Shown: in pieces, positions 13,261 to 18,458 of the stretch
Layout of the letters: the number at the start of each line of letters is the position of its first letter
Numbering within the stretch: the stretch's first letter is position 1
Origin: Candidatus Desantisbacteria bacterium CG1_02_38_46
GTDB taxonomy: Bacteria; Desantisbacteria; UBA1551; UBA1559
Assembly (NCBI GenBank): GCA_001871015.1
Contig: MNUO01000019.1
Location: forward strand, 1 to 18,564
Direction: 5' to 3'
Length of the DNA stretch: 18,564 nucleotides
Position numbers and translations under genes: made by a program
The notes under the pieces: model-generated
Told to the model about the DNA's origin: nothing
Databases searched by the model: none
What the model saw: the letters and a program-made list of their open reading frames with translations, nothing else

Positions 13261-15912
13261 TCATATAAGCTTATGGAGTTTTTCTATGATTGCATCAAAT
13301 TCTTTTCCAGAAAAACAAAATTTAAGATTGGTAAACTTTTTTCTAAATGATTTTACTTTTTCTTTTACTGTTTTCCCCTCAATTACAACATCATGAATAA
13401 ATTGGGCAACGGTTTTAAAATCTTTTTCTTCCATGCCGAATCTTGTCATTTCTGCAACGCCCAATCTTAAGGAGCCTGATGCAGTGAATCCTTCTTCTTT
13501 GGGACTTGCCTGATAATTAACTATTATGTTGTTTTCCTCAAGTTTTTTAGCCATCTCTGGTCCTTTTGCATAACCGACACTAACAATCACCTGATGAGTT
13601 TCTGTATAAGCAACTTCAGGGTCTCCTTCTACGTTTATGCCAGTATCTTTTAGCGCCTTAGCGAATGCTTTGGCATTTTTCAGGACTTTCTTTTGATATT
13701 CGTCCTTGAAGTAATTCATTTCATATGTAGAGAGTAATAATCCTAACATGGTTCCAAGGTGATGATTGCTTACACATCCAGGGAATGTCCTTTTGTTTAC
13801 TGTCTCCCAGAATTCATATCGTTTGTCTTGTTTGCTGTAGTTTGAAGCAATAATACCCCTCTGAGTGCCAAAAAAAGTCTTGTGCGTAGACGCAGTAACT
13901 ATGTCAGCTCCTTCTTTAAAAGGTTGCTGAAAATGGGGACCAACTAACCCTAATACATGAGCCATATCATACATAATAATACAATTTATGGAAAGCTCAT
14001 CCACAAATGCCCGTATTTCAGCAACCGGCTCTGGATGAAGAACTACACTTTTACCAAATATGATTAATTCAGGTTTATATTCAGCAATAAGTTCTTTGCA
14101 TGCACAAGCATCTATCTTGTATGGATTTTCAGAAAGAACAGGAAAATTTATCACAGCCGGTTTTTCTGTTTTGGGGTCACGGGCAACAAAATCCTGCAAG
14201 GCTCCCATTGGTTGACTGCTAAGATGTCCACCTTTGACAATATGGTTATTTAAGACGCAACGAATTTTTCGCTGTTCACTTTTTCTATCAAATCTATTAA
14301 TATAATCAACAATAGCACTGAAGACTGCTATATTGGCCATCTGCCCGCTTATTAAACGAGTTTCGACTTCTCTACAACATAAAAATATACACAGTTCCTT
14401 CTCTAATAGTCTCTCTACTTCTTTAATAAAATCAATCCCTTGATAGTAGAAAATATCTGCATCATAAAAAGCTTTAACACGTCTATGCTCTCCGTACCGA
14501 AAAGCAGGGTCCATAACAGAAAGCAAGCGAGTCATCGGTGACTGGGTTTGCTCAGAAGGAATTAGATTTATACATTCTCTTTGTCTCCATATTGTATTTT
14601 CATATGCTTTGTTTAGAAGAAAGTTCACCTTTTTAATATATCCTGATTCATCAAGTACTGATTCCTCTTTTTTGACAGTATGGTTATGTAAAAATGCTCG
14701 AGCATAAGGAGGCGCTTCTGACCTTAAATGAGATGGGACAATAACTGCTTTTGTTCTTTTTCCTCTAATTTCAATATCTACACTGTCGCCTGCATGGAAA
14801 TTGCTATCCACTAAGGCTAAGCAAACAGACCGCATTCCTTTTTCATCGGTCAATTTACTTAAAATCCCTTCTCCTTCAAATTTATAATAAGGTGTGACAG
14901 TGCCGCTGGTTACATATCCTGCACACCTATTTTCTGAAAAAACTTTAAAGCCTGTCCTGGCCATGTTTTTTCCTTCAAGTGTTAAAGGCATTATTAACCT
15001 TGGCAGATCTTTTATTAATGAATAATCTCCATCTAAAATTTTCTTGAATGCCTCAAACTGTTTTATCAATGCATTTTTCCCAATAAAATCACCTTTCAAA
15101 GGAGAAAAGCTCACGGCAAATTTAGCTAAAGGACAGGAAAATATAGGTATCTCTTTTCCTTCTGGGTCTATACCCAATTCATGCCCGTAGAGAGGAAGAG
15201 ATGCTTCAATCCTGAGGGTATCTCTGGCTCCTAATCCTACAGGAATTGCTCCGTGCTCAATTAAAATATCCCAGATTGTCAAAGCATCATCCCTGCTGAC
15301 AAAAAGTTCAAAACAAAGTGGTTCACCCGTATATCCAGTTCTACTGATTAAGACCTTAATATTACTCATCGTCACAATACTGAGTTTATTTCTTAATGGC
15401 TCAGGAAGGAAACCAGAATCTATAAGCTCATTGAGTATTGCTCTTGATAATGGGCCTTGCAGGGAAATCATAACCAAATCTTCTGTTTGATCAATCATCT
15501 CTAATTTTTTAAATCTTTTGATAATTTCCTGGAAATAATCCCAGTCTTTTTGTGTGTTACTTGCATTCACTATTAGAATATACTCGTCTTTAAAAAAACG
15601 ATAAAGGTAGGCATCATCAATTGCCCCTCCTTCAGAATCAGGTATGATTGTATATTGGGACTCGCATACACCAAGAGCATCAGCGTTATTCGTAAGAACA
15701 TATTGCAAAAATGGAAGTGCATCTTCTCCACGGAATACAAATCTACCCATATGGGAAACATCAAAGAGTCCGGCTCTACTTCTTGTTGCTAAATGTTCAT
15801 CTATGATTCCCATGCTATAATGTAAAGGCATACACCACTCTGCAAACTCCACCATCTTTGCTTTAAGGTCTACATGTCGCTGATAAAAAATAGTTTTACG
15901 AAGTTCTTTCAT
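13261..15912 (-). CDS. Fusion of glycine-cleavage T-protein (aminomethyltransferase) and archaeal-type serine hydroxymethyltransferase
   Basis: One uninterrupted 883-residue frame carries two enzymes of folate one-carbon metabolism. Residues 1 to about 405 are GcvT: 'FDVSHMGRF' (50-58), D99/D100 in 'GGAIDDAYLYRF', 'RTGYTGE', and 'GARDTLRIEASLPLYGHEL' (228-246), ending in a normal barrel domain. After a linker of about 20 residues, 425-883 is SHMT with D649-H652 'DMAH' and the PLP lysine K678 in 'STHKTFFG'. This half has 'FPGCVSNHHLG', 'ETHQVIVSV' and 'RLGVAEMTRFGM', which I recall from archaeal SHMT rather than bacterial GlyA. AGGTG precedes ATG 15910-15912. It could pass methylene-THF from glycine cleavage to serine synthesis. 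No GcvH or GcvP is in the window. Confidence 0.92.
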   Translation of the reverse strand: MKELRKTIFYQRHVDLKAKMVEFAEWCMPLHYSMGIIDEHLATRSRAGLFDVSHMGRFVFRGEDALPFLQYVLTNNADALGVCESQYTIIPDSEGGAIDDAYLYRFFKDEYILIVNASNTQKDWDYFQEIIKRFKKLEMIDQTEDLVMISLQGPLSRAILNELIDSGFLPEPLRNKLSIVTMSNIKVLISRTGYTGEPLCFELFVSRDDALTIWDILIEHGAIPVGLGARDTLRIEASLPLYGHELGIDPEGKEIPIFSCPLAKFAVSFSPLKGDFIGKNALIKQFEAFKKILDGDYSLIKDLPRLIMPLTLEGKNMARTGFKVFSENRCAGYVTSGTVTPYYKFEGEGILSKLTDEKGMRSVCLALVDSNFHAGDSVDIEIRGKRTKAVIVPSHLRSEAPPYARAFLHNHTVKKEESVLDESGYIKKVNFLLNKAYENTIWRQRECINLIPSEQTQSPMTRLLSVMDPAFRYGEHRRVKAFYDADIFYYQGIDFIKEVERLLEKELCIFLCCREVETRLISGQMANIAVFSAIVDYINRFDRKSEQRKIRCVLNNHIVKGGHLSSQPMGALQDFVARDPKTEKPAVINFPVLSENPYKIDACACKELIAEYKPELIIFGKSVVLHPEPVAEIRAFVDELSINCIIMYDMAHVLGLVGPHFQQPFKEGADIVTASTHKTFFGTQRGIIASNYSKQDKRYEFWETVNKRTFPGCVSNHHLGTMLGLLLSTYEMNYFKDEYQKKVLKNAKAFAKALKDTGINVEGDPEVAYTETHQVIVSVGYAKGPEMAKKLEENNIIVNYQASPKEEGFTASGSLRLGVAEMTRFGMEEKDFKTVAQFIHDVVIEGKTVKEKVKSFRKKFTNLKFCFSGKEFDAIIEKLHKLI

Positions 15913-16072
15913 AAGACACCTGTTTGAAGAATTTCTCCATTGCTTCGTATGTTTTCAGCATGCTTTTTATGCTTACGTATTCTCCGTTGCCGTGATAATT
16001 TTTTCCGTAAATGCTGAAATCTATGGCAGGGACTCCTCCGTCTCTTTCCTGCGGGATATCTTTTTCAACAAT
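15896..16072 (-). pseudogene. 3' remnant of an M20-family peptidase/deacylase gene
   Basis: A 58-codon open stretch lies between kbl and gcvT-SHMT, with a stop (16073-16075) directly before it and no start codon at its head. It contains 'GGVPAIDFSIYGKNYHGNGE' followed by 'YVSIKSMLKTYEAMEKFF'. This matches the C-terminal signature of M20 metallopeptidases such as ArgE, DapE and CPDG2 ('G.PAVDFG..G...HG.NEYV.I..L'). Its stop overlaps the first codons of gcvT-SHMT in another frame, and the gcvT ribosome binding site lies within it. The rest of the gene, about 350 codons in the family, is absent, so this is a truncated relic. Confidence 0.7.
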
Positions 16073-16124: not shown

Positions 16125-17312
16125 TTATATTATTTTTAATTCCTTCCCTACCTTATTAAATGCTGCCAGGGCTGTATCTAAATCCTCCCTGGTAAGAGCT
16201 GCAGAAATCTGCACCCTGATTCTTGCCTGGCCTTTCGGCACAACGGGATAGGAAAAACTTATTACGTAGATGCCCTCTGCAAGCAGACGGTCAGCCATAT
16301 CCACGGCAATTTTAGCATCACCTATCATCACCGGCACGATCGGATGCTTGCTGGAAGCAATGTTGAATCCTGCCCTTGCCATTCCCTCCCGAAAGTATTT
16401 AGTATTTTGCGCCAGCCTGTCGAGGAGCTCGGTTGAAGACGTAATTATTTCTAAAGCTTTCAGCGAGGCTGCGGCTATTCCCGGCGCAAGGGTGTTGGAA
16501 AAGAGATAGGGCCGTGAGCGCTGCCTTAAAAGTTCGATAATCTCTTTTCTGCCGCTGGTGTAACCTCCGGACGCCCCGCCAAGGGCTTTGCCAAAAGTTC
16601 CGGTCAATATGTCGACTTTACCCATAACGTCGTGATACTCGTGCGTGCCCCGACCCGTCCTGCCCAGTACTCCCACGGCGTGTGAATCGTCAATCATGAC
16701 TAAAGCGTCATACTTTTCGGCGAGAGCACAGATTGTTTTCAAATCTGCAATAGTGCCGTCCATCGAAAAAACTCCGTCAGTGGCAATCAGGTGGAAGCGT
16801 GCACCCGCAGCCTCCTGCAACCTGGCTTCCAGGTCCTTCATATCACCCGCCTTGTAGCGGTAACGCTGGGCGCGGCAAAGGCGTATGCCGTCTATGATGC
16901 TGGCATGATTTAACTCGTCGCTCAGCACTACATCCCCCTCACTGAGCAGGGCTTCGAACAACCCCCCGTTTGCGTCAAAGCAGGAAGAATACAAAATCGT
17001 GTCTTCTGTTCCGAGAAACTCCGACATTTTATTTTCCAATTCCTTGTGGAGCTCCTGGGTTCCGCATATAAATCGCACCGATGACAGACCATAACCCCAT
17101 TTCTCTATCCCTGCCTGTGCGGCGGCTATCATCTCCGGGTGTCCGGAGAGTCCGAGATAGTTGTTGGCGCAGAAATTTAGAACCTGGCTACCGCCTTTCA
17201 GTTTGATTCTGGTACCCTGAGGTCCCGCAAGGACGCGTTCTTGTTTATACAGACCGGCCTCGTGAATATCCTTCAGCGTTTCTTCTATAAACAATTTCAT
17301 TTTGCCAAGCAT
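16125..17312 (-). CDS. kbl: 2-amino-3-ketobutyrate CoA ligase (glycine C-acetyltransferase)
   Basis: A 395-residue PLP enzyme of the alpha-oxoamine synthase family, near the 398 residues of E. coli Kbl. It cleaves 2-amino-3-ketobutyrate with CoA to glycine and acetyl-CoA. '[10 protein letters not shown]' (46-55), '[14 protein letters not shown]' (80-93), '[13 protein letters not shown]' and '[14 protein letters not shown]' are diagnostic. 'DDSHAVG' (208-214) holds the cofactor-contacting Asp and His, and the Schiff-base lysine is K242 in '[15 protein letters not shown]'. AGAGGTG sits a few bases before ATG 17310-17312. It follows tdh by 13 bases, so the two form an operon for threonine breakdown; the order is the reverse of E. 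coli. Its base composition is visibly richer in G+C than the genes to its left. Confidence 0.97.
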
Positions 17313-17325
17313 TTTTCACCTCTTT

Positions 17326-18351
17326 TTATGCCCAATCCAGGATAACCTTACCGCAGTTTCCACTTTGCATTACTTCAAAAGCTTTTTCGAACTCCTCGCA
17401 GCGGAAACAGTGGGTGAGCACTGGTGTAACATCCAGCCCGCTCAAAATCATTGAGGTCGACTTGTACCAGGTCTCAAACATCTCCCGTCCGTAAATACCC
17501 TTGATTGTCAGGGACCTGAAAATTACCTGCGTCCAGTCTATTGCTGCCTTAGCCGGTAATATTCCTAAAAGAGCAATTCGCCCCCCGTGGACCATATTGG
17601 CAATCATCTGGCGCAATGCATCTATATTTCCGGACATTTCCATCCCGACATCAAAACCCTCCTGCATACCTAATTGATTCTGGACTTTTTTAAGATCAGC
17701 GGTCTTGGCATCAAGTGCCAGTGTTGCACCCATCTTTTTTGCCAGCTCCAAACGAAATGGATTGATATCGGTCACAACGACATGTCTGGCTCCAACATGT
17801 TTGGCAATTGCCGTAGCCATCAGGCCTATGGGCCCAGCGCCGGTTATGAGCACATCTTCACCAATAAGATCAAAGGATAGTGCTGTGTGCGTTGCATTTC
17901 CCAGGGGGTCAAAATATGCTAACATTTCCATCGGGATTTTGGGATGTGCATACCATACATTAGCCACAGGAATACAGATATACTCGGCAAATGCTCCTGG
18001 ACGGTCTATACCAACACCTGATGGTTGTGCACAGAGATGCCTGCGACCTGCCAGACAGTTGCGACATAGCCCACAGACCAAATGCCCTTCGCCGCTGACC
18101 ACATCTCCTTTCTTAAAACCATGCACATTGCTTCCAACCTCAAACACAGTGCCAGCAAATTCGTGCCCAATCACCAGTGGTATCTTAATTGTTTTTCTCG
18201 CCCACTCATCCCAATTGTATATATGCAAATCCGTGCCACAAATTGCTGTCTTGTGTATTTTTATCAGCACATCATTTATGCCTAATTCTGGTACAGGCAC
18301 ATCCTCCATCTCTAAACCTATCCCTGCACGAGATTTAACAATAGATTTCAC
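17326..18351 (-). CDS. tdh: L-threonine 3-dehydrogenase
   Basis: A 341-residue zinc-dependent, NAD-linked dehydrogenase that oxidises threonine to 2-amino-3-ketobutyrate, the substrate of Kbl next door. Catalytic zinc ligands are C38 ('AICGTDLH') and H63/E64 ('GHEF'); the structural zinc cysteines are 93, 96, 99 and 107. The Rossmann motif GAGPIG is at 171-176 and 'EMSG' and '[14 protein letters not shown]' are family signatures. The start is GTG 18349-18351 with GGAGGG just upstream. This gives exactly the E. coli length and aligns with its 'MKALSKL' start. The open frame continues to 18444, but those 31 codons are the tRNA-Ser gene. It starts 17 bases after the tRNA. Confidence 0.96.
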
Positions 18352-18368
18352 ATTCCCTCCCTGCGTTA

Positions 18369-18458
18369 TGGCGGAGAGGGTGAGATTTGAACTCACGACC
18401 GTCTTACGACGATTCTGGTTTTCAAGACCAGCGCCATCAGCCACTCGGCCACCTCTCC
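18369..18458 (-). tRNA. tRNA-Ser (UGA), CCA end present in the DNA
   Basis: Class II tRNA: acceptor GGAGAGG/CCTCTCC, D arm 'TGGCCGAGTGGCTGATGGC', anticodon stem CTGGT/ACCAG around CTTGAAA (anticodon TGA), a long variable arm, and T arm GTGAG/CTCAC with TTCAAAT. Discriminator is G, followed directly by CCA at 18369-18371. The other three tRNA genes here lack CCA, so this copy stands out, although three matching bases may be chance. Confidence 0.95.

Follow-up and report, generated by a model that had tools for sequence, protein, structure and literature searches.

The genome of Candidatus Desantisbacteria bacterium CG1_02_38_46 contains a gene that joins, in one open reading frame, a GcvT T-protein (aminomethyltransferase) and an SHMT. 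The product most likely has two activities, serving the glycine cleavage system (GCS) as its T-protein and acting as a PLP-dependent SHMT; conserved residues and sole-copy arguments suggest that both halves are active. The gene belongs to a widespread family that extends well beyond this genome. It lies in an 18,564-nucleotide stretch of contig MNUO01000019.1, which is called here the window. Its parts are as follows.

13261..15912, minus strand: GcvT-SHMT fusion gene, 883 aa, ATG at 15912, stop at 13261
14698..15912, minus strand: GcvT half, residues 1-405, supported by Pfam, TIGR00528 and the model against 1wos
15613..15618, minus strand: D99-D100 (IDD motif), invariant in 38 of 38 fusions and aligned with 1vlo/1yx2
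14641..14697, minus strand: linker, residues about 406-424, from the alignment of 38 fusions and the pLDDT of the model
13264..14640, minus strand: SHMT half, residues 425-883, supported by Pfam SHMT; archaeal-type by solved relatives and tree
13879..13881, minus strand: PLP lysine K678 in STHKTFFG, invariant in 38 of 38 fusions and matching the HK in every SHMT tested

Translation of the open frame from 15912 to 13261 showed no internal stops. Pfam placed GCV_T at residues 9-247 (241.5 bits) and GCV_T_C at residues 361-394 (34.7 bits), both above cut-off, and SHMT at residues 435-839 (128.7 bits against a cut-off of 27). An earlier note on this DNA, which gave no strand, had proposed a complete GcvT and a complete SHMT in a single frame, and the domains of both enzymes within 883 unbroken residues bear this out. 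The motifs that it quoted for the SHMT half (STHKTFFG, FPGCVSNHHLG and YTETHQVIV) are all present in the protein, and K678, its choice for the PLP lysine, is the residue encoded at 13879-13881 and kept throughout the 38 aligned fusions.

Scanning GTDB genomes with the SHMT half identified 45 loci, 40 of which carry both halves in one open frame; these 40, three of them cut by contig ends, are 54-72% identical over their length and have no internal stops. By record labels, with MAG names taken as given, the hosts include Desulfobacterales, Syntrophobacteraceae, Acetobacterium and Oscillospiraceae, as well as Actinomycetota, Nitrospirota, Planctomycetota and Firestonebacteria. Cultured Acetobacterium is among the carriers of an intact fusion. 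In the family of A. wieringae (Eubacteriaceae), the fusion is whole in 8 of 40 genomes and split at contig ends in one more; three of the eight whole copies lie on contigs numbered C1 with megabase coordinates. Single-contig genomes carry the fusion too. The order reached via a Desulfobacteraceae genome has the fusion in 23 of 67 genomes: 20 copies are whole and unbroken, two are split at contig ends and one appears as two aligned stretches inside a single 975-codon frame. No version with the two halves split into separate genes was seen in the genome sets searched. These sets consist mostly of incomplete MAGs, so that absences of genes weigh little.

The source assembly is fragmented (133 contigs, 87.84% complete), which could favour an artefact of assembly or annotation in which two neighbouring genes had been merged by loss of a stop. 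Against this, 40 further loci have the frame unbroken, as do single-contig genomes and a RefSeq record. In particular, the interval 14650-14700, where the earlier note had envisaged a missed stop, contains none, and the other 40 loci are unbroken there. The intact loci and the single-contig genomes rule out an assembly artefact, and the chance that the fusion is spurious is negligible.

The GcvT half passes the NCBIfam model TIGR00528 (255.8 bits, cut-off 235.85) and just misses NF001567 (299.7 against 300). Its IDD motif, D99-D100, aligns with the GGxIDD/GGxVDD of 1vlo/1yx2, the region of the catalytic aspartate in E. coli T-protein. Residues D99, D100, Y87, N119, E197 and R230, which represent this region and the folate site, are invariant in all 38 fusions. 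An AlphaFold2 model of the fusion, built on the 38-sequence alignment, had a mean pLDDT of 82.2 and a pTM of 0.71, with low confidence in the active-site loops 469-491, 558-566 and 711-717 and a pLDDT of 53 in the linker block 411-420. Foldseek searches with this model gave T-proteins as the best matches (1wos, TM 0.89 by target), followed by the M. jannaschii SHMT 4uqv (0.84), which outranked every other SHMT. The likeness to the T-proteins of T. maritima (1woo/1wos) and B. subtilis (1yx2) covers the whole fold (TM 0.86-0.89 by target), the IDD motif, the GLGARDTLR sequence and placement in gcv operons. Unlike these proteins, the GcvT half has inserts in its C-terminal part and continues at its C-terminus into a second, complete enzyme.

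Among solved structures, the M. jannaschii SHMT (4bhd/4uqv) was the best match to the SHMT half, with about 188 bits, against 102 bits for the L-threonine transaldolase 7k34 and about 84 or less for bacterial and eukaryotic SHMTs. In an ML tree, all 41 fused SHMTs clustered together (91/95), the standalone Aminicenantes SHMTs joined this cluster (96/98), and bacterial GlyA was set apart at 100/100. The SHMT half thus lies firmly outside bacterial GlyA on phylogenetic grounds, and its being an ordinary GlyA, the outcome that the earlier note had named as fatal to its proposal, is ruled out. Bacterial GlyA shares with it the superfamily and the catalytic residues, but only about 24-27% identity. 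The archaeal-type label proposed in the same note held in part. The half is outside GlyA and closest to the M. jannaschii enzyme among solved structures; yet its nearest standalone relatives, those of Aminicenantes, are bacterial, and M. jannaschii, the sole archaeal sequence included, was placed with the bacterial side at a midpoint fork of weak support (70/97). Because of this placement, descent of the SHMT half from archaea is not firm. In the corresponding analysis of the other moiety, the GcvT halves formed one clade (96/71) apart from the five standalone GcvTs sampled. Since each half forms one clade in its tree, the data fit a single fusion origin followed by horizontal spread between phyla.

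The M. jannaschii enzyme is the best match by sequence and fold; it has the same catalytic residues as the fused half and the STHKTFFG, SNHHL and TE(T/S)HQV motifs in common with it. The fused half differs in having extra residues around the flap and after GGHLS, NYQ in place of NKN, an attachment to GcvT and host genomes devoid of the methanopterin enzyme Mch. The Aminicenantes SHMT forms a sister clade, is about 50-54% identical to the SHMT half and has both its second insert and its NYQ change; it is unfused, with its GcvT encoded separately in a gcvT-gcvH-gcvPA-gcvPB operon. More distant SHMT-like proteins were also noted. Two Desulfobacterales-type genomes carry a standalone SHMT (L069:3217-4503 and L070:3224-4510), about 45% identical to M. 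jannaschii SHMT and 38% to the fused SHMT, adjoined in the same order in both by a radical SAM gene and an LL-diaminopimelate aminotransferase gene. Small plasmids of Arsenophonus (CP132902, CP132904 and CP132908) encode a protein resembling SHMT, with 27-28% identity to the query, that is annotated as hypothetical or as threonine aldolase family.

Nine residues of the SHMT half (S453, Y473, E475, H563, D649, H652, H677, K678 and R816) are invariant in the 38 fusions and match SHMT catalytic positions. The surroundings of the active site are remodelled, in part as in the Aminicenantes SHMT: residues are inserted before YYQG, the segment after GGHLS is longer, EH replaces EG, and Q801 stands where NKN has its second N. 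This asparagine lies at the pterin site, so that folate handling may differ. The half scores 244.3 bits with the NCBI SHMT model NF000586, below the cut-off of 335, as does the standalone Aminicenantes SHMT (262.8 bits). This shortfall raises the question of whether the SHMT half might have the SHMT fold but act on a different substrate, for instance as a threonine aldolase or transaldolase that would split threonine or make another beta-hydroxy amino acid from glycine. Consistent with such an activity are a match to the fluorothreonine transaldolase model TIGR04506 (130 bits), the match to 7k34 by both sequence and fold, and the tdh and kbl genes that adjoin the fusion in the window. SHMT models nevertheless score higher (244 bits), and M. 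jannaschii SHMT stands far above 7k34 (188 against 102 bits). The latter, from P. fluorescens, has the SHMT fold and a THQV motif in common with the fused half, is a weaker match than the archaeal SHMT and sits on a very long branch. Moreover, the SHMT half is fused to, and in an operon with, THF and GCS genes. In four genomes of Aminicenantes type, no SHMT other than this sister type passes the cut-off. It typically occupies a glyA-like place in the order rpiB-glyA-purD (L041-L044), and the Aminicenantes genomes searched yielded no ordinary GlyA. The sole-copy status and gene order argue indirectly that archaeal-type SHMTs of this class are active and carry out the essential SHMT reaction, and we consider a different substrate improbable. 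The fused SHMT itself is rarely the sole SHMT, ordinary GlyA being found beside it in nearly all fusion genomes; it could therefore have another preference.

At many loci, gcvH, gcvPA and gcvPB adjoin the fusion gene. The order in Acetobacterium is gcvH-fusion-gcvPA-gcvPB-sdaAB-sdaAA (sda, serine ammonia-lyase), while Vescimonas fastidiosa pMM35_01 has a complete gcv operon, fusion-gcvH-gcvPA-gcvPB-lpdA followed by the gene for 5-formyl-THF cyclo-ligase. A. wieringae has, besides its fusion operon, a second, ordinary gcvT-gcvH-gcvPA-gcvPB operon (L075:3852-8119). No GcvT domain besides that of the fusion was found in the window's genome (87.84% complete) or in 13 of 23 other fusion genomes searched. 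The H- and P-proteins of the window's genome are encoded on another contig, C91, in a gcvH-gcvPA-gcvPB operon that lacks gcvT. Taking the incomplete genome at face value, the fusion must supply the T-protein, given this operon and the lack of another GcvT. A separate, ordinary GlyA is encoded as well. Within the window, the fusion gene lies downstream of, and on the same strand as, a gene pair for conversion of threonine to glycine.

16125..17312, minus strand: kbl, glycine C-acetyltransferase, upstream neighbour of the fusion (NF005394, 651.8 bits, cut-off 460)
17326..18444 (mechanical start), minus strand: tdh, L-threonine 3-dehydrogenase (NF003808, 551.1 bits, cut-off 380)

A tRNA-Ser at 18369-18458 overlaps the 5' end of the mechanically called tdh, whose true start therefore probably lies about 31 codons inside. 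The tdh/kbl pair was not recognised as a common neighbour at the other fusion loci. Between kbl and the fusion, at 15899-16069 on the minus strand, lies what looks like a decayed gene; it reads VEKDIPQERDGGVPAIDFSIYGKNYHGNGEYVSIKSMLKTYEAMEKFFKQVSYERTS, weakly resembles the C-terminus of an M20-type peptidase (best E 0.00032) and overlaps the fusion start.

GcvT, SHMT and the pathway to which they belong are textbook biochemistry, and the fusion most likely couples glycine cleavage or synthesis to glycine-serine interconversion. Together with the H-protein, the GcvT half would transfer the lipoyl-bound aminomethyl group to tetrahydrofolate, yielding 5,10-methylene-tetrahydrofolate and ammonia; the SHMT half would then combine methylene-THF with a second glycine to form serine, or act backwards. 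With GcvH, GcvPA/PB and Lpd, the fusion could thereby interconvert two glycines and serine plus CO2 and NH3. In the window's genome, the upstream tdh and kbl could supply glycine from threonine. A flux from glycine to serine would suit these threonine genes, as it would the serine ammonia-lyase of Acetobacterium, but the reactions are reversible. As the main serine source of the window's genome, the fusion is a weakened candidate, for this genome has a complete SerA alongside a normal GlyA. Tetrahydrofolate is the probable C1 carrier, as judged from genome context rather than from the enzyme: 25 of 28 genomes had a FolD hit above cut-off and none of the 28 had Mch, with positive controls detected in three archaea. 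The absence of Mch from these 28 genomes speaks against methanopterin as the carrier.

That methylene-THF is handed between the halves, so that the fusion does more than fix the ratio of the two enzymes, is our guess. A stronger form, in which a single-chain serine-forming enzyme passes GcvT-made methylene-THF to its SHMT half in a dedicated glycine-serine route, is put forward tentatively; equally tentative is the corollary that acetogens, sulfate reducers and gut Clostridia would use this route alongside their ordinary GlyA. We give about an even chance to the simpler possibility that both halves are active and the fusion does no more than keep them together in equal amounts, with methylene-THF diffusing freely. 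The linker, short and variable across the 38 aligned fusions, agrees with free diffusion, as do the separate GcvT and SHMT genes of Aminicenantes and the coexistence of ordinary GlyA with the fusion in most genomes. On the other hand, one fusion has been kept through many phyla with no split form in the sets searched, which suggests selection beyond dosage.

The two steps joined by the fusion follow one another in the reductive glycine pathway, as they do in glycine/serine fermentation, and have a reactive folate intermediate in common. A natural fusion kept across several phyla opens folate channelling between GcvT and SHMT to direct testing, and offers a ready-made part for engineering formate- or CO2-based growth. 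Public sequence data already contain the fused form; in the RefSeq record checked, the 881-aa protein of V. fastidiosa is called only 'glycine cleavage system aminomethyltransferase GcvT'. Annotation can thus hide a second SHMT, and metabolic models can miss its activity on account of such a name. No published description of a GcvT-SHMT fusion was found in the open-access literature searched. In one study, expression of A. woodii gcvHTP in E. limosum resulted in 2.25-fold faster growth (PMC8407422); it may have used a GcvT-SHMT fusion unknowingly.
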